Assembly (NCBI GenBank): GCA_002742845.1
Contig: DLUH01000005.1
Coordinates: 620,553-684,552, forward strand
Direction of reading: 5' to 3'
Source of the DNA: Sulfurovum sp. UBA12169
GTDB taxonomy: Bacteria; Campylobacterota; Campylobacteria; Campylobacterales; Sulfurovaceae
Length of the DNA stretch: 64,000 nucleotides
The notes under the pieces are model-generated. The model searched no databases and was not told where the DNA came from. It saw only the letters and a list, made by a program, of their open reading frames with translations. Below, one piece after another: positions 1-11,976 of the stretch. A program made the translations under genes and the position numbers. The stretch's first letter is position 1. Every line of letters starts with the position of its first letter.

Positions 1-335
1 ATATACGGCATGTGATTTTCAGTAAAGAATGGATGGTGCATGCCGGAAGCCAGCTTGGCCAAAAAGAAAGTCAAGGTCGCAAAGAAATTGTCTCTAAGCA
101 GTTTTTGAGAGAGATTAGACCACTCATACAGCCGATTATTGCTGAGATATATCATCGCTTGGGCTTGGATTATTTTGGTATAGATTGCAGTATTGACAAA
201 GAGATGAATCTTTTGGTTTTTGAGATCAATGCCAATATGAACGTTTTTATCCAAACAAAAAATTCTCTCTTTGCAAAGCATATCGAAATGATTCGTACGG
301 CCTTGATTAAAATGCTGATGAAAAATGAGAAATGA
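1..335 (+). CDS. ATP-grasp ligase, C-terminal part (cut by window start)
   Basis: The reading frame is open from the first bases (codons begin at position 3), so this is the 3' end of a longer gene; the GTG at 12 is internal. The visible part has the ATP-grasp C-terminal core: LDYFGIDCSID followed by LLVFEINANMN, where the acidic and Asn residues bind Mg-ATP in this fold. It closely resembles the C-terminus of the ATP-grasp protein at 1408-2400 (LDYFGIDCAID, ILFEANANMN), so the two are paralogues. ATP-grasp enzymes join a carboxylate to an amine through an acyl-phosphate. The substrate is unknown. Its stop overlaps the next start as ATGA (332-335), which indicates translational coupling to the GCS2-type ligase. 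Confidence 0.85.
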   Translation, partial: IRHVIFSKEWMVHAGSQLGQKESQGRKEIVSKQFLREIRPLIQPIIAEIYHRLGLDYFGIDCSIDKEMNLLVFEINANMNVFIQTKNSLFAKHIEMIRTALIKMLMKNEK

Positions 336-1381
336 ATATGATACAAATTGGCATAGAGCACGAGTTTGTCTTTAAAGATAACAAGGGAAATTATATAGAT
401 TTTGAAACGGCGGATTGTTCTGTATTTCAAAAAATGGCTAATGATTTTCCTTATAGTGAAGGTAATGATGCGGTTTTTGAATGTAAGTCATTGGAGAAGC
501 GGCCTAAACGATGTTATGTCGAAGGGTTTGAGCGTTATAACCTTTCGGGAGAAGTCACCAAAACTATTCCAAAAGGGCTCGAGATCAGAACACTGCCTCA
601 TGAAAATGCAGATGATGTCATCAATGATTTTGTTGAGTCCTATACATATACCATGAAGATCGCAAACAAGTTTGGTTTTTCTCCTTTGTTGACAAGCATG
701 CATCCTTTTAAGACAGCCGTTGTTATGAAAGAGTCATTTAATGATACCGAGATTGCTTTGCGTACAGAGGAACAGTTGGCTGTTGCAACCAATGCACTGT
801 TGTGGCACGGCCTTCATGTGAATGTATCCATGAGCCATCTTTCAAGAGAAGAGATGACAGACCTTGTGCAAAAGGTAAACTATTATACTCCCTATATCAT
901 CCCTTTTAGTTTTTCATCACCTTTTTATAGCGGAAGGGCATTTGAGGGATTGTCGTGCAGGGCTTACCTAAAAGCCAAAACAAGAAAGACGGTTGAACTG
1001 CAAAACAGAAACGGAGTTGATGTGCTTGAGTTTAGAGGGTATGATTCTTGCGGTGATGCTGCACTACTCAAATCGTTAATTTTGCTTTTTAAGGGGTTGC
1101 TTTTGGATGAAACGTTAAAAAAACGCGCAGTGTTTCAAGATCCCGAAATGTTGGAGCGGTGCGCACTTAAAGGTTTTGAAGATGAGACGATTAGGCAAGA
1201 AACATTGTATATTTTGCAAGCAGTAAAAAATACGATGAAGGAAGAAAAAAACACATGGGAGTACCTTCAAAAAATGCTTCTGGCCAATGATTCTTATGCA
1301 GCGAGGATGAAACAGGATTATCAAAAAACAGGCGATATCATGCAGTGTATTTCAAACAGATATTGCTATGGCGTACAATAA
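332..1381 (+). CDS. GCS2-type carboxylate-amine ligase (glutamate-cysteine ligase-like)
   Basis: A 349-aa protein with the signature of the glutamate-cysteine ligase family 2 (YbdK/EgtA-like, glutamine-synthetase fold). GIEHEF is at residues 7-12, EIRTLPH at 84-90, HGLHVNVSMSH at 149-159 and VLEFRGYDSC at 231-240. These acidic, His and Arg elements form the metal-ATP and amino-acid site in the family. Members make gamma-glutamyl or other amide bonds from an amino acid and an amine with ATP. The start overlaps the upstream ATP-grasp stop (ATGA), and 26 bases separate it from the next ATP-grasp gene. Alternation with two ATP-grasp ligases argues against a glutathione role and for a dedicated peptide-like product. 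The exact substrate cannot be read from the sequence. Confidence 0.8.
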   Translation: MNMIQIGIEHEFVFKDNKGNYIDFETADCSVFQKMANDFPYSEGNDAVFECKSLEKRPKRCYVEGFERYNLSGEVTKTIPKGLEIRTLPHENADDVINDFVESYTYTMKIANKFGFSPLLTSMHPFKTAVVMKESFNDTEIALRTEEQLAVATNALLWHGLHVNVSMSHLSREEMTDLVQKVNYYTPYIIPFSFSSPFYSGRAFEGLSCRAYLKAKTRKTVELQNRNGVDVLEFRGYDSCGDAALLKSLILLFKGLLLDETLKKRAVFQDPEMLERCALKGFEDETIRQETLYILQAVKNTMKEEKNTWEYLQKMLLANDSYAARMKQDYQKTGDIMQCISNRYCYGVQ

Positions 1382-1407
1382 ATAGAACTAAAGAAAGAGG
1401 ATCAATA

Positions 1408-2400
1408 ATGCCCAAAAAAACCATCCTATTCATAGACGGCATACCCGATGATCGAAAAGTAAGAGTGCGCAAGATCGAGCAAGACGGAACTCTTAGATGG
1501 CGGGGCAGCGGCAGTGCCAATCTGGTCAGCTTTCTTCAAAGCGATCTCTTTGGCCGCTCCAATATCGTGTTTGATACCAACCGTGATCAAGAACTCCCCA
1601 AGCAAATGATCCACGCCGTGTTCAATCAAATCTCTGATCCCGACACCCACAAGATCACACTGCAAAAAGCAGACGAATTTTACAAGCACATCCCAAAGCA
1701 CATCCCTTTTTTCAATATCCCTTCTCAAGTGATGAAAACCACACGCGACAATATCTATAGGCTGCTGCAAGGCATTGACAAGCTTCATGTTCCCAAGACA
1801 GTAAAAATTCAGCCAAAATCACCCGCAGATATCTATGAGGTGATCAAAAAAGAAGGTTTCAGCTTTCCTGTAATCTTCAGGCAGGCAGGCGATCATGGAG
1901 GTATCAGTACGATCAGAGTGAATGATGAAACAGAACAGTTCTATGCCTTTGCGCTGGATGGAAGAGACTACTACCTGACACAGTTTGTAGAGTATGCCAA
2001 CGAAGAGGGCATCTATGCCAAATACCGATTGGTCGTTGTGGACGGCGAAGTGTATATACGGCATGTGATTTTCAGCGACAGCTGGATCATCCACAGCGAG
2101 AGCAGAACTTTTATGGAAAGAAATAAACACTATCAGCAAGCAGAAAAAGACACTTTCAAAACATTTGACAAACAGATCAAACCAAAGATTCAGCCTATGA
2201 TCAAAGAGGTTTACGACAGGGTAAAGCTTGATTATTTTGGGATTGATTGTGCGATCGATGAGGCATTTGATGTGATCTTATTTGAAGCCAACGCCAATAT
2301 GAATATCCTTCTTAACAACGCCAAAAGCAAAGATAACATATGGACCAAACAGATCGATATGATTATTCGAGCTATTATCAAGATGATCCTAAAGAGGTAA
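1408..2400 (+). CDS. ATP-grasp ligase (RimK/glutathione synthetase-like)
   Basis: A 330-aa protein. I place the start at 1408 because AGAGG lies 7 bases upstream; a longer frame from 1345 has no such site and would overlap the preceding gene. The N-terminal third (MPKKTILFIDGIPDD) looks like the pre-ATP-grasp domain. The central ATP-binding strand-loop is FPVIFRQAGDHGGIST (about 154-169), where R and the Gly-rich loop hold the nucleotide. The Mg-binding end is YFGIDCAID and FEANANMN (about 276-299). It is a paralogue of the partial gene at the window start; both even share 22 identical bases (1-22 and 2054-2075). The likely reaction is ATP-dependent amide bond formation. It lies 3 bases upstream of the GNAT-BKACE fusion, so all four genes probably form one transcript. 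Confidence 0.8.
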   Translation: MPKKTILFIDGIPDDRKVRVRKIEQDGTLRWRGSGSANLVSFLQSDLFGRSNIVFDTNRDQELPKQMIHAVFNQISDPDTHKITLQKADEFYKHIPKHIPFFNIPSQVMKTTRDNIYRLLQGIDKLHVPKTVKIQPKSPADIYEVIKKEGFSFPVIFRQAGDHGGISTIRVNDETEQFYAFALDGRDYYLTQFVEYANEEGIYAKYRLVVVDGEVYIRHVIFSDSWIIHSESRTFMERNKHYQQAEKDTFKTFDKQIKPKIQPMIKEVYDRVKLDYFGIDCAIDEAFDVILFEANANMNILLNNAKSKDNIWTKQIDMIIRAIIKMILKR

Positions 2401-2403
2401 AAG

Positions 2404-3753
2404 ATGCAATTTAGCATACAGCCCGCCAAGCCCGGCGACTTTGAACAAATCCTTGCAGTACTTAAACCGTGGAATATGCATCATATCCCTTCACCTGAAA
2501 TGGAGATGATCGATTTTGATACTTTTTTTGTCGCAAAGATGGACGGCAAAATCGTAGGCGTATCGGGGTATAAGATGCTTTCTAAAGAGGAAGGCAAAAC
2601 CACTCTTTTGGCGGTCTATCCGGAGTTTCAAGGCTCCGGCATCGGCAAGGCGCTGCAAGATAAGCGGCTTGAAGCGATGCACCAAGCAGGCATCAAAAGT
2701 GTCACTACCAATGCAGACCGCCATGATATTATCATATGGTACAAAAAGCATTACGGCTACAAAGAGATCGGCAAGATAAAAAAGGTTGCCTCTTTTGGGT
2801 TAGACGATGTGAAAGAGTGGACGACTTTGCAGATGGATGTGAAAGCATATTTTGTGCATAAAAAAGAAAAAGAAACAAACAAGCAGCGCTATATCCTCCA
2901 AAACGATCCTTATCCGCTCTCTCCTTATCCGCCGCTGATCATCAATGCCTGTCTTACCGGTATGGTGCCGACAAAAATGAGTACACGGTATGTGCCTATC
3001 AGTGTCGATGAGATCGTTCAAGATGCTATCAGGGTGTATGATGCGGGGGCCAGGATCGTGCATTTGCATGCGAGGGATAAAGAGGGAAAACCTGCCCATG
3101 AAGCGCGTTACTATGAAGAGATGATCACCGCCATTCGCCAAGAGCGGCCTGAACTTATCTGCTGCGTGACTACTTCAGGACGCAATATTAAAGGGATAAA
3201 AGAGCGTTCACAAGCACTTTACCTAAGCGGCAAGGCAAAACCTGATATGGCAAGCCTGACGCTGGGCTCTTTAAATTTTCTAAGCGGTCCGAGCATCAAT
3301 GCGCTAGATACCATCCAAGAACTTGCCATGATCATGAAAGAGCAGGGTATCAAGCCTGAGCTGGAAGTGTTTGATGCAGGGATGATCAATGTCGCCAAAT
3401 ACCTTGAACGCCACAACATGATAGAGGGCAAAAAGTATTTTAATCTTTTGCTGGGCAATATCAACACCGCGCCTGCCACGATCGGGGATCTTGCGCATCT
3501 TTCGGGCGCTTTGCCTGCTGATTCTGTCTGGGCTGCTGCGGGGTTGGGGGGATTTCAGCTGCCGATGAATGTTGCAGGCATCGTTGCGGGGGGACATGTG
3601 AGGGTGGGCATAGAGGATGCCGTCTATTATGACTATAAGCAAACCGTATCGGCAAGCAATGCAGAACTGGTCAGCCGCATCGTACGCATCGCCGATGAAT
3701 TGCAAAGGCCTATCGCCACGGCAAGCCAGACAAGAACAATGCTGGGAATTTGA
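2404..3753 (+). CDS. GNAT acyltransferase fused to a BKACE (DUF849) beta-keto acid cleavage domain
   Basis: A 449-aa two-domain protein. Residues 1-150 are a GNAT N-acyltransferase with the acyl-CoA loop VYPEFQGSGIGKAL (71-84) and IWYKKHYGYKEIG near 111-123. A charged linker (about 150-168) joins it to a complete BKACE domain starting at PLIINACLTGMVPTK (177-191). BKACE landmarks are HLHAR (220-224, zinc-binding His pair), GSLNF (288-292) and HVRVGIED (398-405, with the third zinc ligand E404). BKACE enzymes react a beta-keto acid with acetyl-CoA to give a CoA ester and acetoacetate (for example Kce in lysine fermentation). The fused GNAT could pass the acyl-CoA to an amine. AGAGG lies 7 bases before ATG, directly after the ATP-grasp gene. 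The fusion looks genuine because no stop or frameshift separates the parts. Confidence 0.85.
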   Translation: MQFSIQPAKPGDFEQILAVLKPWNMHHIPSPEMEMIDFDTFFVAKMDGKIVGVSGYKMLSKEEGKTTLLAVYPEFQGSGIGKALQDKRLEAMHQAGIKSVTTNADRHDIIIWYKKHYGYKEIGKIKKVASFGLDDVKEWTTLQMDVKAYFVHKKEKETNKQRYILQNDPYPLSPYPPLIINACLTGMVPTKMSTRYVPISVDEIVQDAIRVYDAGARIVHLHARDKEGKPAHEARYYEEMITAIRQERPELICCVTTSGRNIKGIKERSQALYLSGKAKPDMASLTLGSLNFLSGPSINALDTIQELAMIMKEQGIKPELEVFDAGMINVAKYLERHNMIEGKKYFNLLLGNINTAPATIGDLAHLSGALPADSVWAAAGLGGFQLPMNVAGIVAGGHVRVGIEDAVYYDYKQTVSASNAELVSRIVRIADELQRPIATASQTRTMLGI

Positions 3754-3834: not shown

Positions 3835-4554
3835 TTAGAATTTGTAGCTTAAGCCAAGGTTGACCGTATAAATTGAATGTTCCCAATTATATACATAATC
3901 ATAGTCCCCGCTTTCTTGAGTGTAAGAACCGTCTTCGCCGTTGCAAAGCTGTACATAGTCAAGGAACAAAGAAACATTCTCTGTGATGCCATAAGAAGCA
4001 CCAAGTCCCCATTGGAAACCGTTTTCATCTAGCGCAGTATCACCCCAATACTCATCATCTGACTCTACATTACCGTATCCCAGCAATGCATAGACATTTA
4101 GCGCTTCGGTGACAGGGTACATCGGTTTGACATAGATTCCCCATGCCTCAAACTCACCGTCGCTCCATTCTCCATTATCCTGTGTTTCTTGATCTGGATA
4201 TCTATACCAATAATCTTGAGATCTTTGAGAGATGGAGTTCCAGTATCTTCCCTCTATCGCAACGTACTGGTTGAATTGGTATCCTGCCTGAAGCATAAAT
4301 GCATCATAGTCCCTGTCATACGTTCCGCCCCATTGATAATAAAGCTCATCATAGTGATACTCATCTGCTTGGTAATCCATTTCTGAATTCACAAAACTGT
4401 ATGCACCACCGATATAAAACCCGCTGTCGCTTACTGCTACCGGCGCTTCTACTTCAACTACCGGTTCTACCGGCGCCTCGATGTCTCCGCCCGCCATGGC
4501 AAATGTTCCCATTGCCACTACTGCTGCCAGTGAAAGTGTAAATCTTTTCATCAT
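3835..4554 (-). CDS. Outer-membrane beta-barrel protein, paralogue 1
   Basis: A 239-aa secreted protein. It has an N-terminal signal peptide (MKRFTLSLAAVVAMGTFAMA, cleavage likely after AMA) and a Pro/Glu/Val-rich segment (IEAPVEPVVEVEAP). An eight-strand-type barrel follows, with alternating aromatic strands (GFYIGGAYSF, AFMLQAGYQFN, YVAIEGRYW, WGIYVKPMYPV) and the C-terminal Phe typical of Bam-dependent barrels (VNLGLSYKF). Extracellular loops are Tyr/Asp/Glu rich. This matches OmpA-like/Opa-type barrel families; the ligand is unknown. Two adjacent ATGs (4554 and 4551) are possible starts, and the second matches the paralogue. The gene has its own promoter, shared in sequence with paralogue 2 at 4748-5479. 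Signal peptide and strands are almost identical between the two, while the loops differ. Confidence 0.85.
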   Translation of the reverse strand: MMKRFTLSLAAVVAMGTFAMAGGDIEAPVEPVVEVEAPVAVSDSGFYIGGAYSFVNSEMDYQADEYHYDELYYQWGGTYDRDYDAFMLQAGYQFNQYVAIEGRYWNSISQRSQDYWYRYPDQETQDNGEWSDGEFEAWGIYVKPMYPVTEALNVYALLGYGNVESDDEYWGDTALDENGFQWGLGASYGITENVSLFLDYVQLCNGEDGSYTQESGDYDYVYNWEHSIYTVNLGLSYKF

Positions 4555-4573
4555 GTGTTCTCCCTGTTAAATA

Positions 4574-4609
4574 AAATTGAACTACATGATAGCCTATAAC
4601 TGCTTAAAA
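4574..4609 (-). promoter_or_regulatory. Promoter of OMP paralogue 1, conserved with paralogue 2
   Basis: This 36-base block matches 5500-5535 at most positions. On the minus strand both read TTTTAAGCA, one variable base, TTATA, then a spacer and TTCAATTT. A -10-like element lies at 4591-4596. Conservation upstream of two diverging genes suggests a shared promoter or operator. Confidence 0.45.
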
Positions 4610-4704
4610 TATTTTATGTAGAGAGATGTTAAAAATTATTTTGATGAATTTTTGAGATTTTTTGATTGCCAAGACAGACAGATAAAGATTTATAACTATG
4701 AGTC

Positions 4705-4728
4705 TATGGGGCTTGGTTGAGCCCCATA
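4705..4728 (-). terminator. Perfect 9-bp hairpin after OMP paralogue 2
   Basis: TATGGGGCT (4705-4713) pairs perfectly with AGCCCCATA (4720-4728) around a 6-base loop, 20 bases past the stop codon of the gene at 4748-5479. No long U tract follows on the minus strand, so it may be a weak terminator or a 3'-end stabilising stem. Confidence 0.5.
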
Positions 4729-4747
4729 CAGTATGTTAGACAAAAGG

Positions 4748-5479
4748 TTAAAATTTATAGGTTAAACCGACGTTGATCGTATAGACGGTATCTTCCCAGC
4801 TCTCTTCACCAATATAGTCATACTCTTCCCATGATTCTGAGCTGTCCGCATCACAAAGCTGCACGTAGTCTGCAAATACGGAAATTTTGTCAGTCAATGC
4901 ATACGAAGCACCAAGACCCCATTGGAAGCCGTTTTCATCTACAAAGTCGTCATGCCATTCATTACTTAGCGTTACGTTACCGTACCCCAGCAAGGCATAC
5001 ACATCCAACTCTTCCGTGACAGGGTACATCGGCTTGACATAGATCCCCCATGCTTCAAAGTCAAAATCCCCATCCGATCCGCTATCGTGACCTGAATAAG
5101 GATCATCGTTGTATGTTCCCGATACGCTGTAAGACCAATCACCATCGCTTAGGGATTTCCAGTATCTGCCCTCTAGTGCAATGTATGGGTTGAACTTATA
5201 CCCCGCTTGAAGCATAAACGCATCATACTCTACCTCATTACTTCCACTCCACTCTTCATAGACGCCATCGCCGCTATCTAACTCTTCTTCCCATCCGCTG
5301 AAATCTTCATCGAGTTTTGCCGCACTGTACGCAACCCCGATATAAAAACCGCTGTCGCTTACTGCCGGCGGAGCTTCTACTTCAACTACCGGTTCTACGG
5401 GCGCTTCGATGTCTCCTCCTGCTATGGCAAATGTTCCCATTGCCACTACTGCTGCCAGTGAAAGTGTAAATCTTTTCAT
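4748..5479 (-). CDS. Outer-membrane beta-barrel protein, paralogue 2
   Basis: A 243-aa protein with the same plan as its neighbour at 3835-4554. The signal peptide is MKRFTLSLAAVVAMGTFAIA, followed by the acidic Pro/Val stretch and barrel strands GFYIGVAYS, AFMLQAGYKFN, YIALEGRYW, WGIYVKPMYPV, VYALLGYGNV, GFQWGLGASY and the terminal VGLTYKF. The first 35 residues and the strands are nearly identical to paralogue 1. The exposed loops are Ser/Asp/Gly rich and divergent, as expected for surface-exposed parts evolving after a tandem duplication. The start is clear: AGGAGG lies 5 bases before the ATG. It probably folds in the outer membrane via Bam; transport or adhesion role unknown. Confidence 0.85.
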   Translation of the reverse strand: MKRFTLSLAAVVAMGTFAIAGGDIEAPVEPVVEVEAPPAVSDSGFYIGVAYSAAKLDEDFSGWEEELDSGDGVYEEWSGSNEVEYDAFMLQAGYKFNPYIALEGRYWKSLSDGDWSYSVSGTYNDDPYSGHDSGSDGDFDFEAWGIYVKPMYPVTEELDVYALLGYGNVTLSNEWHDDFVDENGFQWGLGASYALTDKISVFADYVQLCDADSSESWEEYDYIGEESWEDTVYTINVGLTYKF

Positions 5480-5711: not shown

Positions 5712-6085
5712 TGGTGGAGGTGTGGGGGATCGAACCCCAGTCCTAAAACAGCTAGAACTATGACTCTACATGCTTAGATGATGTTGTTTATTCTCGTCTT
5801 GCTTCGTACTACACCCAAAACTATGCAAGACCAGCCTAAAGGTTCATCCGAAGGTTAGGCAGCCTTCAGGTATAGTCATCAGATATGATACCTCAAACTC
5901 TAGCTAAGATGACACTCACTAGCGAGGCAGTCCTCCGCGTTAGCGGGGTTAAATACTTACGCTACTGCGTAAGCTGGACGATAATCTGTATTGTTTGCGT
6001 TTATTCGCGTTGGGCCGCGTAACGGAATTGCCCAGTCCGACATGCACATAGCCCCGACTACTCCAGTCGAAACCAAGTCACCCCC
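5712..6085 (-). ncRNA. ssrA: Transfer-messenger RNA (tmRNA)
   Basis: The mature RNA is about 374 nt on the minus strand. The 5' end GGGGGTG (6079-6085) pairs with CACCTCC just before the encoded ACCA end (5712). This gives a 7-bp acceptor stem whose third pair is G-U, the alanine identity signal. A T-arm with GGTTCGATCCC is visible. The tag reading frame begins at GCA (5996-5998) and reads ANNTDYRPAYAVA, ending at TAA (5957-5959). Pseudoknot-like GC stems follow on both sides. tmRNA, with SmpB, rescues ribosomes stalled on broken mRNA and tags the product for proteolysis. The tag resembles Campylobacterota tags in its ANN and PAYA parts but ends in AVA instead of the more usual KAA-type end. 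Confidence 0.95.
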
Positions 6086-6239: not shown

Positions 6240-7763
6240 CTAAAAGATTTTAAGATGAAGACTCTGTATCAATCGCGCGGCACTGCCTGCTTTGTTAGCT
6301 TTTGGCTGATAGAGATAGCAGTGTATTTTCGGTGGAATATATGGGGGTATATCAAGTGACTCAAACTCTTCTTTGGCAGCCTGTTTGGCTTTAAACAAAG
6401 CCATTTGTACTCTGGAGTAAAAGTTTGCCGCACCTTCTCCTGAGGTTTCTATGGCAAGGAAATTGGCCGACGGAAAGCGGCTTGTGACCAGGGATTGGAT
6501 GCCGTCTGAGACACAAGAGGAGGGCATGCAGCCAAAAGGTTTGACGGAGATGACCAGGTGGGCAAGATTTTTTTTAACGCTTTCTATGAGGTGGGCTACT
6601 TCCATATGCCCCTCTCCTCCGCTTGATTCAAGAGGATAGTATGCTTTGCTCAGGTCGGCCAATTTTTGGATATCGGGTATTTCAAAATCATGAAGCCCTA
6701 TGGCTTTGGCATACAGGGTAAAATGTGTTTTGAGTGCAACTTTTGCTGTTTTGATAAGCAGTTTGTTTTTGAGATTTGAAAAATCGATCTTTTTTCGATC
6801 GGGTTTTTCTGTATCCTGAGTTTTTTCCAATGCAAACTCAGCTTCCCATATACTGAGCATCAGACGGTTGATGAGAGGCTGAGGGATACACTCTGCGCCT
6901 TCTTCTTCTAGAAACCGATGCAGGTTATAGTTGCCGTCTCCCTCGGTCATAGCCGCCCAAAATTCACCCATTACCATCACTTTTGGTTTGGGCTGCAAAC
7001 GGTCAAGACCTACTTTCTCAAATATGTCTCTGCATTTCCACATGGCTTTTATAAGATTTTTTTTCTGCATGAACGCTTCAGAAATGATCTCTCTGCACTT
7101 CTCTATGGCTTTGTTTGTTGCACCTTTTTCAAGTTCATAGGGGCGTATTTTATAGCCCAGGATATTGATAATATCTCCGATGATCACAGCTTTTGCAAGA
7201 GTGATAAAAAAGATAGGCGTAAAGTTGATTGCACTTTGGTCATTGATAGCCTGAAAAATGCCTTTATTGTGCTCAAAGCTCATGATCCTGAAACCTTCAA
7301 ATCCTGCATCCCGAAGTGCTTTGCGATACTCAGTAATATACATCCCAAAGCGACAGGGTCCGCATCCTCCGGCGGTCACAAAGAGATACTTTTGGATGAT
7401 CTCTTCGCTGCTTAAGCCTTTTTCGTCACGCAGTTTTTGAAGGTATTTGATGAGGTTGCCGACATTGAAATAGGTCGGATTGCACTGCCCGCGGTTTCCG
7501 AAAGCTTTGCCCAATTGAAATGATTCAAAATCGGGATTGGGCATGGCCGCATACCGTTCTCCTAAAGAGTGCAATGCTGAAGCGATCAGTTTATCTTGGA
7601 GTAAAGTCAAGCCCCCAAAAAGAATGGTTACTCCAGGTTTTTCCTCTATGGTAAACGTGTACCGGGTGTGATCTTTCCACTGTTTTTTTTCTTGATGGAT
7701 AAAGTGGAGATTGTCAGGATTGCTGCCGGGTTGAAAACCGCTGCATGAAGGGGAAGTGCTCAT
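6240..7763 (-). CDS. HgdB-like Fe-S protein (2-hydroxyacyl-CoA dehydratase component family)
   Basis: A 507-aa protein that resembles the HgdB/BcrB-C superfamily often encoded next to activases (COG3581 type). Candidate cluster-binding cysteines are in GQCNPTYFN (about residue 95), TAGGCGPCRFG (about 131-141) and FGCMPSSC (about 413-420). A predicted helical region follows GVTILFGG. In the family such proteins hold a [4Fe-4S] or double-cubane cluster and receive a low-potential electron from an ATP-driven activase. The start ATG overlaps the stop of the activase gene (ATGA, 7760-7763) and has GGAG 6 bases upstream. No dehydratase substrate genes (CoA transferase, acyl-CoA dehydrogenase) are near, so the substrate is unknown and may not be a CoA ester. 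Confidence 0.7.
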   Translation of the reverse strand: MSTSPSCSGFQPGSNPDNLHFIHQEKKQWKDHTRYTFTIEEKPGVTILFGGLTLLQDKLIASALHSLGERYAAMPNPDFESFQLGKAFGNRGQCNPTYFNVGNLIKYLQKLRDEKGLSSEEIIQKYLFVTAGGCGPCRFGMYITEYRKALRDAGFEGFRIMSFEHNKGIFQAINDQSAINFTPIFFITLAKAVIIGDIINILGYKIRPYELEKGATNKAIEKCREIISEAFMQKKNLIKAMWKCRDIFEKVGLDRLQPKPKVMVMGEFWAAMTEGDGNYNLHRFLEEEGAECIPQPLINRLMLSIWEAEFALEKTQDTEKPDRKKIDFSNLKNKLLIKTAKVALKTHFTLYAKAIGLHDFEIPDIQKLADLSKAYYPLESSGGEGHMEVAHLIESVKKNLAHLVISVKPFGCMPSSCVSDGIQSLVTSRFPSANFLAIETSGEGAANFYSRVQMALFKAKQAAKEEFESLDIPPYIPPKIHCYLYQPKANKAGSAARLIQSLHLKIF

Positions 7764-10700
7764 TGTATCTCCTCTTGGGCAATTTTTTGATATATTGTAT
7801 CTTTCAAAAAAGCGGACAGGCTGCTGCGTTTATTGTCAGCAAGCGTTTTTTGGTACTGTTCAAGGGTATAGACAAAAGTTTTAACCCGTATCTTGATGGA
7901 TCCGCCGGGTTTGTTGGCATCGACATCGTGCAACGTGAGGTGAGGAGTGTGGCTGCTGCCGAGTATTTTGTCGATGATGGCATAGGTAGGCGCATCGTGT
8001 CCGCACTTGAAGCTGGAAAGGTCTATTACTGCAACATTGGGGTGGCGTGCCGCAAATTTGGCTGCCCAGACTTTTTGTGCCGAATTGGTAGAAAAATTTT
8101 CCGGCCATACATCTGTGATATCAAAAACGTCCTCGATAAATCCTTGTGTCAAATCCTCTTGAAAATAGGTGCGAAGATAGGTTTCGTCTTTGGGTATGGA
8201 TCGCATCGAAAGGGTTTTGTAGCCCAAAGACTGGAATTCATCCAGCAGGTCGTGGTTAAGTCCGGGGTCTGTATGGTAGGGTCTGGCCAAAAGCAAAAGC
8301 ACCACTTCGCTATTTTTTTCTGCTGCATCCAAGATAGCGCGTCCTTTGTCCATCAAAAGCTCCTCATTTTTTTTGAGCGCTTTAAGGGCTTGTTCTGCTG
8401 CCCAGTTGTTTTCATCTTTGGTGATGCGAAGTTTTTTCCCCCATGTATCAAAAAGTTGTTTTTTAAGCAATGAGAGGTTGTCAAAGTTGAGTGCATCATC
8501 GACATACTGCAATCCTTTGGCCTCAAAGAGATCCCTTTCTTTGGTAAAGGCCGAATAAACCACCTTGGGTGTTCCGGAGACAACGGGGCATGCCGTTTGC
8601 CCCATTGTGTGTGTTACATGCCCCGGCAGTTCGGTCACGGAAGGAAACCAGAGATAGTCAAAATGCTTTTTGCTAAACTTTTTGCTAAACATCAGTGCGT
8701 AGACATGGGCTTGAGCCACTTTTGCAGGATAGCAAGAGTCCACAGAACCGTATTTGGCCCCCTCTAAGAACATATCTTCGTTGGAAAATCCTGAGAACTG
8801 GATATGCAGCGGATTGATATCAAGCGCTTCAAGATAGGTGCGCAAAAAAGGTGCAAGACTATAGATGTTGAGCACTTTGGGAATGGCTATTTGAAGCGTT
8901 TGCCTGTAGGCTTTATCTGCCGGGCCGCTGCCAGCAAACGCTCGTGTGACAGTTTTGCATAGCGTTGGCCCCCACCCTTTGAGTGTGACTTTGATCTGCT
9001 GTTCGCATACGGTGTCACTTGAAGTAGGTTTGGGCTCAAGTGTATAGGTCGGCGCAAAAAGTGCATGGGATTCTGTTTTGACAAGGTTGGGCACTTTTGT
9101 TTGCAGTTCTTTTCTTTGGTTTTTAACCTCCTGAAGCGCCTGTACAGACTCTACGGTGCCGTTTTCGCAGGCAAATCCTGCGATATAGCGAACACTGTGA
9201 GAGCCGGGAGTGCGGGTGTCGATAAAGGTGCGTGAACAGTTGATGGAGCAAAAATGACATCGTGTGCTTTCATCAGTACGTGACGTATAGCTCAGTTCCA
9301 AAGCCTCCTCTAGACCCACAAAAGTGGCATAGCCACGCTCTTGTATCGTATGGCATGCCTCTATGGCTGCCCCGTATGCTCCTGCTTCTCCGGGGTAAGG
9401 ATGAACATCGACTTTGGCATGGGGCGCGGCATTTTTGATATAGTCCACCTGTGCTTTCAGCGCAGCCTGGTTGTATTGGGTTCCGCCTTGAAGCACAAAA
9501 TGTTTGCCCAATACAGAAAGATTTTGTGCTTGTACGACATACTGCCAAACATTTTTGGGCAAAACCTTGGCAATGCCGGCAAAAAGCTCTTCTTTGGTAT
9601 AGCCTTCTTTTTGGAAATTGACCCTGTCTGTATCTAAAAATACCGCACATCCGTAGTTGAATTTTGGTGACTGGGTTGCAGCAAAAGCGACATCGGCAAA
9701 ATCTTCGACCAGAACGCCGAATTGTTTTGCCATGCTTTGAAGCAGGGTGCCGTTTCCTGCACTGCATTGGTTGGAGAGGCGAAAATTTTTCATCATACCG
9801 TTTTCCATGAACAGTACTTTGATATCCTGCCCTCCGATATCGCAGATGACATCGATACTTTTTCCAAAGACTGCCTGAGCACTTTTCATATGTGCAATGG
9901 TCTCTACAGTATTGGCATCGGCTTTGAGCGCACCCTCGAGTACATCAGCGGCATATCCTGTCACTCCCAGACCCTTGATATCATAAAAATGATGCGTGTC
10001 GTGTGCCTTGATCTGCCTTAAAAGCTCTAGAGTGTCTTGTATAGGGTTGCCTTTGGAGAGCTGATAGACCTTTAGCAGCAATCTTCCCTCCTCATCGACC
10101 AAAACCGCTTTGGAGCTGGTTGAGCCCCCGTCTATACCCAGGTAACAGATCGTCTTTCTGATAAGCTTTGGAGGAGTGAATGCAGAAATAGTGTAGACTT
10201 TTTTGAAAGCTTCGAGTTCTTTCTTGGAATGACAAAGCGGCATATCGGTGCGCACATTTGCCTCTTTGCCTCCTGTATCGACAAGAGTTTTAAGCGCTGT
10301 GAGTCCGCCAAATGTCCGACTATGGTTTGATTCTCCTTCCCCAAAAATGACTGCACCCAAAGCCGCATAGTATTGAGCGTTTTCCGGAACGATGATAAGC
10401 GCTTCAAGTGCTTCTTTATCATAGGCTATGCTTCTTTCGTCCCAAAGTTCACTGATGCGATTACGCCAGCACTGCTGTAAAAAAGGAAGATAGGTATTTG
10501 GACCGCCCAAAAGCAACACTTTTGGCATGAGCGTGTTGCCTCTTGTAAGTACCGTAAGATTTTGCATCACAATAGCATCGGCAAGAGAGTTCATGATCTC
10601 ATGCGGAGGGATGGAATTTTTTACCAGGTTGACGATATCCGTTTCAGCAAATACACCGCATTTGGCAGCGACATGATGCAGTTTGGCTGCATCAAAAGAG

Positions 10701-11188
10701 AGTTGCCGCAGCTCTTCTGTCTCCATGCCTACTTTCATAGTGCATTTCTCGATGGTGGCTCCCGTTCCGGAGGCACATTTGTCATTCATGGAGGTTAGTA
10801 CGGTTTTTTGCCCGTTCTCTCCCTCTTTGAAATGGATGATTTTGGCATCCTGTCCCCCTAACTCAATGACGGCGTTGACTTCAGGGTGCAGATGTTCTAC
10901 GGCTAAGACCACAGCATTGACCTCTTGGACAAACCGTGCATTGAGCGCGGGAGCGATTCGGCTTGCACCTGAGCCGGTGATATAGACTTTTTTTATTGCA
11001 TTATAGGCTTGGGGGGAGGTTTTAGAGAGTTCCTCCAAAAGCGAAAGGAGAGTGGCTGCCTGTTTAGTATTGTGCGGGGTGTAGGCTTTGGCGATGATCC
11101 TGAAAGTTTCATCGCACAGCACATATTTGACCGTGGTGGAACCTATGTCGATACCCAGGGTATAGGTGGGCAGATAAGAAGCGGTCAT
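7760..11188 (-). CDS. Double BcrA/BcrD-type ATPase activase fused to a DUF2229/HgdB-like domain
   Basis: About 1142 aa. I start it at 11188, where ATG overlaps the lgt stop as ATGA; the longer frame to 11221 would overlap lgt by 37 bases. Two ASKHA ATPase domains lie in tandem. The first begins GIDIGSTTVK, with GGQDAK, NDKCASGTGA and AAKCGVFAETD. The second begins GIDGGSTSSK, with GGQDIK, NQCSAGNGT and YGCAVFLDTD. Each pair of Cys would bridge a [4Fe-4S] cluster; in classical HgdC this takes two identical subunits, so here one chain may form its own pseudo-dimer. The C-terminal half has a CX2C-type start (CHFCSINC), FSGFSNEDMFLEG and SCYPAK-like cluster motifs of the DUF2229 family. ATP hydrolysis should drive electron transfer to the HgdB-like partner encoded directly downstream. 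Confidence 0.8.
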   Translation of the reverse strand: MTASYLPTYTLGIDIGSTTVKYVLCDETFRIIAKAYTPHNTKQAATLLSLLEELSKTSPQAYNAIKKVYITGSGASRIAPALNARFVQEVNAVVLAVEHLHPEVNAVIELGGQDAKIIHFKEGENGQKTVLTSMNDKCASGTGATIEKCTMKVGMETEELRQLSFDAAKLHHVAAKCGVFAETDIVNLVKNSIPPHEIMNSLADAIVMQNLTVLTRGNTLMPKVLLLGGPNTYLPFLQQCWRNRISELWDERSIAYDKEALEALIIVPENAQYYAALGAVIFGEGESNHSRTFGGLTALKTLVDTGGKEANVRTDMPLCHSKKELEAFKKVYTISAFTPPKLIRKTICYLGIDGGSTSSKAVLVDEEGRLLLKVYQLSKGNPIQDTLELLRQIKAHDTHHFYDIKGLGVTGYAADVLEGALKADANTVETIAHMKSAQAVFGKSIDVICDIGGQDIKVLFMENGMMKNFRLSNQCSAGNGTLLQSMAKQFGVLVEDFADVAFAATQSPKFNYGCAVFLDTDRVNFQKEGYTKEELFAGIAKVLPKNVWQYVVQAQNLSVLGKHFVLQGGTQYNQAALKAQVDYIKNAAPHAKVDVHPYPGEAGAYGAAIEACHTIQERGYATFVGLEEALELSYTSRTDESTRCHFCSINCSRTFIDTRTPGSHSVRYIAGFACENGTVESVQALQEVKNQRKELQTKVPNLVKTESHALFAPTYTLEPKPTSSDTVCEQQIKVTLKGWGPTLCKTVTRAFAGSGPADKAYRQTLQIAIPKVLNIYSLAPFLRTYLEALDINPLHIQFSGFSNEDMFLEGAKYGSVDSCYPAKVAQAHVYALMFSKKFSKKHFDYLWFPSVTELPGHVTHTMGQTACPVVSGTPKVVYSAFTKERDLFEAKGLQYVDDALNFDNLSLLKKQLFDTWGKKLRITKDENNWAAEQALKALKKNEELLMDKGRAILDAAEKNSEVVLLLLARPYHTDPGLNHDLLDEFQSLGYKTLSMRSIPKDETYLRTYFQEDLTQGFIEDVFDITDVWPENFSTNSAQKVWAAKFAARHPNVAVIDLSSFKCGHDAPTYAIIDKILGSSHTPHLTLHDVDANKPGGSIKIRVKTFVYTLEQYQKTLADNKRSSLSAFLKDTIYQKIAQEEIQ

Positions 11189-11976
11189 GCACTTTTTTCT
11201 CCAGAAGACCTCAGTGCCCAAACAATCCAGACCGCACCCGCGATGATATAAGGAATGCTCAGCATTTGTCCTGCGGTAAAGGGCAGATTTATGACATAGT
11301 CTTCTTGGCGTGTTTTGGTATATTCAAGAAAAAATCGTGCAGTAAATAACAAAACTAGAAAAATTCCCGGTAGAATTTTTGTAGCAAAGAGAGGACTGAC
11401 TTTTCTATAAATACCCAGCAGTATCAAAAAGATAATAAAGTAGCTGATTGCCTCATAGAGCTGTACGGGATGGCGGGGGATCATATCGACGCGCGCAAAG
11501 ATGATCGCCCACGGTGCCTCGCTGGGCAGTCCAAGAATTTCAGAGTTGAAAAAATTTCCGATACGCACAAACATTGCTGTCAAAGCCCCCGGTATCGCGA
11601 TACGCGAAAGCAGCCATATGTAAGAAGTGTTGTAGCGTTTGGAAAAGAGGTAAAATGAGACAAGTACGCCTGCAAGTCCTCCATGGCTGGCAAGCCCGCC
11701 TTCCCACACCTTGAGTATCTCAAGCGGATGAGAGAGATAAAAATCAGGCTCATAAAAAAAGCAATGTGCCAAACGCGCTCCGACGACAGCACCCACTAAC
11801 GCATAAACAAGCAAATTGTCAAGCACTGAGGGGTCTTTTGCTTCACGTTTGTAGATCCATTTTGCTATCATTAGTCCCACAAAAAACGATCCTACAAAAA
11901 GCACACCGTACCACCGCAGCTGCAAAGCGCCGAAAGTGAAGATGCTCGGATCGGTATTCCAAATGAAATGTTCCAT
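11185..11976 (-). CDS. lgt: Prolipoprotein diacylglyceryl transferase
   Basis: Inner-membrane enzyme that moves diacylglycerol from phosphatidylglycerol to the lipobox Cys of prolipoproteins. About seven membrane segments are visible. Family landmarks are HGGLAGVL, RIGNFFNSEILG and RHPVQLYEA, which hold the conserved His, Arg, Asn and Glu. Length (263-266 aa) is normal. Two starts are possible. ATG at 11985 has AGG only 1 base away, whereas ATG at 11976 has AAAGG about 10 bases upstream and gives MEHFIWNTDPSIF, so I prefer 11976. The stop overlaps the activase start (ATGA), placing lgt first in a three-gene operon. Lipoproteins in this window (lptE, 18547, 30291) would be its substrates. Confidence 0.92.
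   Translation of the reverse strand: MEHFIWNTDPSIFTFGALQLRWYGVLFVGSFFVGLMIAKWIYKREAKDPSVLDNLLVYALVGAVVGARLAHCFFYEPDFYLSHPLEILKVWEGGLASHGGLAGVLVSFYLFSKRYNTSYIWLLSRIAIPGALTAMFVRIGNFFNSEILGLPSEAPWAIIFARVDMIPRHPVQLYEAISYFIIFLILLGIYRKVSPLFATKILPGIFLVLLFTARFFLEYTKTRQEDYVINLPFTAGQMLSIPYIIAGAVWIVWALRSSGEKSA

Follow-up and report, generated by a model that had tools for sequence, protein, structure and literature searches.

Results

An amide-ligase cassette at the start of the window

The first genes of the window (the whole 64,000-nucleotide stretch of Sulfurovum sp. UBA12169 analysed here, G000:C5:620553-684552, from a 1.86-Mb host genome) form a compact cassette of amide ligases and a GNAT-BKACE fusion enzyme. 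Taken with its relatives in other bacteria, we think that it is, on balance, an accessory NRPS-independent cassette making a small N-acylated peptide-like metabolite. A pathway to a peptide-like metabolite had been proposed in an earlier note on this DNA, and the proposal is now supported by the co-occurrence of the core genes, by their adjacency in 8 genomes and by the presence of ligases next to the fusion in six phyla.

The same note had described two ATP-grasp ligases, a GCS2-type ligase and a GNAT-BKACE fusion in tight succession. This description holds: the four genes are all on the + strand, overlap by 4 bases at the first junction and are 26 and 3 bases apart at the next two, and their families are backed by Pfam (Table 1). 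In HMM searches, the GCS2, BKACE and GNAT domains were above cut-off or clear, and the ligase 1 fragment was weak by Pfam. For ligase 2, alignment with 21 homologues favours ATG 1408 as the most likely start, giving 330 aa, over GTG 1345. No dedicated transporter or regulator was found in the window cassette. PADLOC gave no match, so that a defence role is not backed.

Table 1 Features of the cassette and its surroundings in window coordinates
Feature	Position	Strand	Basis
ATP-grasp ligase 1, C-terminal 110 aa only	3..335	+	ORF translation; weak ATP-grasp by Pfam; 46% identical to ligase 2 C-terminus
GCS2/YbdK-like carboxylate-amine ligase, divergent, 349 aa	332..1381	+	Pfam PF04107; PRK13515 47 bits; motifs
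ATP-grasp ligase 2, 330 aa, RimK/LysX/GshB-like fold	1408..2400	+	PF08443; AlphaFold2 model; fold comparison
22-bp match to the sequence just 5' of the assembly gap, left edge of a collapsed repeat	1399..1420	+	exact match
22-bp match to window 1-22, just 3' of the gap, right edge of the collapsed repeat	2054..2075	+	exact match
GNAT-BKACE fusion, 449 aa; acyltransferase ~1-150, BKACE 177-449	2404..3753	+	Pfam; alignments
OmpA-like 8-strand outer membrane protein, 239 aa, possibly associated	3835..4554	-	relatives adjoin other cassettes
Second OmpA-like outer membrane protein, tandem paralogue	4748..5479	-	ORF list; similarity

In G069, G082, G139 and both loci of G410, the closest relatives of the OmpA-like pair (3835-5479) likewise lie beside the cassette. 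The G410 copy matches Pfam OMP_b-brl, and the host genome contains about 11 related matches. Farther along the - strand lie a tmRNA gene (5712-6085), with the tag peptide ANNTDYRPAYAVA, and two genes (6240-11221) whose 507-aa and 1153-aa products resemble, by eye, a 2-hydroxyacyl-CoA dehydratase subunit and activase.

The GNAT-BKACE fusion enzyme

The fusion protein matches the BKACE domain PF05853 with 273 bits over positions 1-274 of the 274-position profile, and the GNAT domain PF13508 with 41 bits, within the same 449-aa chain. Residues H220, H222, E404, R400, D405 and E321 are invariant in 14 homologues and align to Kce (2Y7D) residues H46, H48, E230, R226, D231 and E143, respectively. 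We take Kce H46, H48 and E230 to be the Zn ligands, and R226, D231 and E143 to be the catalytic residues. Both the His/His/Glu Zn ligands and the catalytic Arg/Asp/Glu set of a BKACE are found in the fusion. The acyl-CoA loop motif Q/RxxGxG/A is also present, as QGSGIGKAL at residues 76-84, and the loop QGSGIGK is kept in 14 relatives. A beta-keto-acid step catalysed by the BKACE domain is a plausible prediction.

The resemblance to Kce extends over the whole length of the domain. However, the Kce residue that binds the 5-amino group of 3-keto-5-aminohexanoate, Glu14 (PMC10470551), corresponds to V188 in the fusion and to Val or Ile in its relatives. The substrate is therefore probably not this lysine intermediate. 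In addition, the NCBIfam Kce model scores the fusion at 265 bits, below its cut-off of 382. Also in contrast to Kce, the BKACE domain here is joined to a GNAT domain and stands in a context that appears biosynthetic rather than one of lysine fermentation.

ATP-grasp and GCS2-like ligases

Ligase 2 matches PF08443 (RimK-type ATP-grasp) with 21.9 bits, against a cut-off of 21. The ATP-grasp alignment, used as a profile against the PDB, found no sequence match of note, whereas fold comparison did find matches: the AlphaFold2 model of ligase 2 (pLDDT 88.5) is closest to RimK (VIA Z 18.8), followed by LysX (18.0), ArgX (17.9) and glutathione synthetase (1gsa; 17.2), and also matches MdnC/PsnB. The metal-binding motif E293-x-N295 is nearly invariant in the 21-homologue alignment, and the protein thus combines the ATP-grasp fold with the E-x-N motif of RimK-type enzymes. 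The cassette ligases share this fold (Z 17-19) and motif with RimK, LysX, ArgX and GshB, but are only 10-16% identical to them and constitute a separate family whose genes, mosaic paralogues among them, often stand in tandem arrays. G359 and G511 have tandem pairs in which one of the two proteins no longer has the metal-binding Glu, FExN being replaced by FGLD or FGVN (L048:8994-10007 and L042:8865-9878), as if that subunit were catalytically dead.

The GCS2-like protein matches PF04107 with 31.4 bits (cut-off 21) and PRK13515 with 47 bits, compared with cut-offs of 176 to 437 for YbdK-type models. It carries the motifs GIEHEF, HVNVS and LEFRGYD, of which HxNVS and EFRG are invariant in three homologues. 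Its match to the YbdK structure 1r8g is weak, and a structure model built from 3 sequences (pLDDT 44) was unusable. At the sequence level, it appears to be a member of the GCS2/YbdK group, with both the domain and the G-x-E-x-E motif.

An assembly gap cuts ligase 1

According to the earlier note, the 5' end of the cassette lies outside the window. The first gene is indeed incomplete at the edge, but the cause is an assembly artefact: a 68-N scaffold gap (L002:14486-14553) runs up to the first base of the window and cuts ligase 1. The 22 bp on each side of the gap recur exactly in the ligase 2 gene, 655 bases apart. These matches mark a paralogous repeat collapsed by the short-read assembler, and about 215 N-terminal residues of ligase 1 are missing because they are identical, or nearly so, to those of ligase 2. 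A complete alanine racemase gene (alr) lies 5' of the gap, and ATGCCCAAAAAA, after its stop codon, corresponds to the start of ligase 1. In an intact relative (G139, L008), the order is alr, ligase, GCS2-like gene and ligase, all full-length, with the counterpart of ligase 1 at L008:9280-10260.

Mosaic structure is seen in the five paralogous ATP-grasp genes that G410 carries in two loci (L038, L039): DNA stretches that are 94-100% identical switch abruptly to ~47-70%. Such a pattern is as expected from recombination between modules, and suggests that parts of ligases are swapped.

Insertion at the alr locus

A search with the C-terminal domain identified alr as the sole alanine racemase gene of the host genome. 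About 17 other members of the genus retain the divergent aguA-alr pair, usually along with aguB, and alr is flanked there by no cassette genes. The cassette is therefore an accessory insertion at this locus. We considered alr as a pathway gene and rejected it: as the only Alr of the genome, in a conserved aguA-alr block, it is best read as the place where the cassette inserted. The upstream genes for agmatine deiminase and N-carbamoylputrescine amidase were rejected as pathway genes as well, since they belong to the same housekeeping block.

Co-occurrence and neighbours across phyla

Among 397 Campylobacterota genomes, the ligase family (AGR type) was found in 15, including one weak match (G530), and the GNAT-BKACE fusion in 13. 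With the weak match left out (14 ligase-carrying genomes), both families occur together in 8 genomes, compared to 0.46 expected (hypergeometric P 2.5e-10). They are adjacent in all 8, as read off match coordinates in the case of G460. About 6 AGR-bearing genomes have no adjacent BKACE. In G007, a short ORF near a contig end (L045:9324-9770) joins fragments of a ligase and a BKACE, probably the remains of a decayed cassette.

Scanning genome contigs for the GNAT part yielded 34 loci spanning Campylobacterota, Chlorobiaceae, Pseudomonadota, Bacteroidota, Spirochaetota, Myxococcota, Verrucomicrobiota, Sumerlaeota and others, and GNAT-BKACE proteins with ligase neighbours occur in at least six bacterial phyla. 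An ATP-grasp, either of the AGR type or of a cyanophycin-synthetase-like partner type named LigX, lies at most two genes away in 24 of the 36 distinct GNAT-BKACE loci; counting AMP-forming and TupA-type ligases detected with Pfam (L099, L104, L107) brings this to 27. Ligase-profile matches were obtained for 32 of 129 near genes versus 3 of 245 farther genes, a comparison that somewhat favours the near count because the profiles were built from the neighbours of the fusion. On the GNAT-BKACE tree, the AGR neighbour needs 3 changes and LigX 4, each more clustered than shuffled labels; the starred branches alone force at least 3 and at least 4 changes, respectively. The association with amide ligases is therefore not one inherited event. 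The remaining 12 loci have no profiled ATP-grasp within two genes. One of these, in Thiobacillus (L089), adjoins hem genes, and another, in Sulfurovum (L077), adjoins lipid A acyltransferase and polysaccharide pyruvyl transferase genes. In a plasmid search with GNAT-BKACE as the query, no record covered 80% of the query, and so no fusion was found.

The content of the cassettes varies. The GCS2-like gene was detected in 3 genomes only (G000, G139, G410), with a close homologue in 2 of 175 family genomes, and a genome-contig scan with the protein found no relatives. It is absent from most cassettes, for example that of G069, from the same genus, and L084, and is an optional member. Ligases number from 1 to 5 per genome. 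In G139 and G082, the cassette also comes with a P450, a TauD-type dioxygenase and a 154-aa protein for which Pfam gave nothing above cut-off, all three together at L008:4615-7185 and L040:863-3510. Other relatives add OCD-type dehydrogenases and AMP-binding domains (AMP-forming ligase). As to whether the same four genes recur across taxa, the check proposed in the earlier note, the ATP-grasp/GNAT-BKACE core does, given its excess in Campylobacterota and its spread over six phyla, but the strict four-gene set is rarer. The four genes in the window represent one version of a wider, modular family.

Discussion

In the proposed pathway, the RimK/LysX-type ATP-grasps, together with the GCS2/YbdK-like enzyme in cassettes that have it, would each convert a carboxylate to an acyl phosphate and join it to an amine. 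The number and kind of ligases would then set the length and make-up of the product. We infer that the BKACE domain would work in the direction in which a beta-keto acid and acetyl-CoA yield an acyl-CoA and acetoacetate, and that the GNAT domain would transfer this acyl group to a substrate amine. One polypeptide combines BKACE chemistry with an acyl-CoA-dependent N-acyltransferase, which suggests that the donor is supplied directly, although each domain of the fusion might instead have a reaction of its own. The TauD-type dioxygenase, P450, OCD-type dehydrogenase and AMP-forming ligase of relatives would provide further tailoring. A bolder idea, to which we give rather less than even weight, is that GNAT-BKACE is a so far unrecognised N-acyltransferase with two functions, generating its acyl-CoA donor itself from a beta-keto acid by retro-Claisen exchange and passing it on to the fused GNAT domain. 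With interchangeable amide ligases, it would form the core of undescribed N-acyl pseudopeptide pathways in several phyla, diversified by recombination of ATP-grasp paralogues.

NRPS-free amide-ligase pathways are well known to yield small bioactive peptides. To our knowledge, neither a BKACE nor a GNAT-BKACE fusion has been described for the dapdiamide, cystargolide, tabtoxin or E-64 sets. The literature that we searched, which included few subscription papers, contained none on BKACE with GNAT or on DUF849 with fusion and acetyltransferase; GNAT-BKACE as an acyl-capping step, or such pathways in Campylobacterota, were not found there either. NRPS-free amide-ligase logic is established for these four products, with DdaF/DdaG for dapdiamide, CysC/CysD for cystargolide, TabS for tabtoxin and Cp1B/Cp1D for E-64 (PMC12568646). 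Like these, the cassette is a small accessory cluster with free-standing ATP-grasps, and some of its relatives share with them AMP-forming ligases or a TauD-type Fe/2OG oxygenase (the latter in G139 and G082). Standalone ligases are thus present in the window, whereas tailoring oxygenases are seen only in relatives. In contrast to the known pathways, there is here a GCS2/YbdK-like ligase, along with several paralogous RimK-like ligases and a Campylobacterota host.

The main rival is a compatible solute, namely an N-acylated di- or tripeptide osmolyte akin to N-acetylglutaminylglutamine amide and made by ATP-grasp and GNAT, because LigX is related to TIGR03103 (N-acetylglutaminylglutamine synthetase). 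LigX matches the ATP-grasp regions of cyanophycin synthetase and TIGR03103 with 83-143 bits, which is far below the TIGR03103 cut-off of 569, and the window's own proteins have no match to this model. Both systems comprise an acyltransferase and an ATP-grasp peptide ligase, LigX of Chlorobiaceae and Halorhodospira being related in the ATP-grasp part, but here GNAT is fused to BKACE and not to the ligase, and no asparagine-synthetase-like amidotransferase was seen among the neighbours examined. Carriers include Halorhodospira and marine or saline taxa, and OmpA-like proteins adjoin the cassette, in line with an osmolyte. On the other hand, the distribution is patchy, the 1-5 ligases are divergent, and P450 and TauD tailoring (G139, G082) would be unusual for such a compound. 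Overall, we regard an osmolyte as unlikely.

It is still less probable that a catabolic BKACE and general amide ligases act separately and merely share one mobile island. The patchy insertion at the alr locus would fit, as would the GNAT-BKACE genes and ATP-grasps that occur alone, but different ligase families are repeatedly paired with GNAT-BKACE in six phyla and at different genomic places. A glutathione-like thiol or gamma-glutamyl peptide, with the GCS2-like protein as GshA analogue, an ATP-grasp as GshB analogue and GNAT as acetylating enzyme, deserves similarly little credit and is less likely than the osmolyte. Such a product would account for a GCS2/YbdK-like protein and a GshB-like ATP-grasp (Z 17.2 to 1gsa) in one operon; it is at odds with the rarity of the GCS2-like gene and its low YbdK-type scores (~47 bits), and leaves BKACE, P450 and TauD unexplained. 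Also less likely than the osmolyte, and the least probable of all, is a graspetide-type RiPP or protein modification, in which the ATP-grasps would act as MdnC/PsnB or RimK do and cross-link or tag a protein or a ribosomally made peptide: despite the structural matches to these enzymes, with RimK on top, no precursor gene was found next to an ATP-grasp within the operon, whose junctions leave no room for one (ligase 1 follows directly on alr, and the next gene lies ~80 bases beyond the fusion), and no small conserved ORF lies beside the cassettes among clustered neighbours of at least 70 aa.

If the proposed N-acylated peptide pathway is correct, the fusion would offer a ready way of searching sulfur bacteria and green sulfur bacteria for a metabolite family not yet described, and the BKACE family would gain a biosynthetic role coupled to N-acylation.
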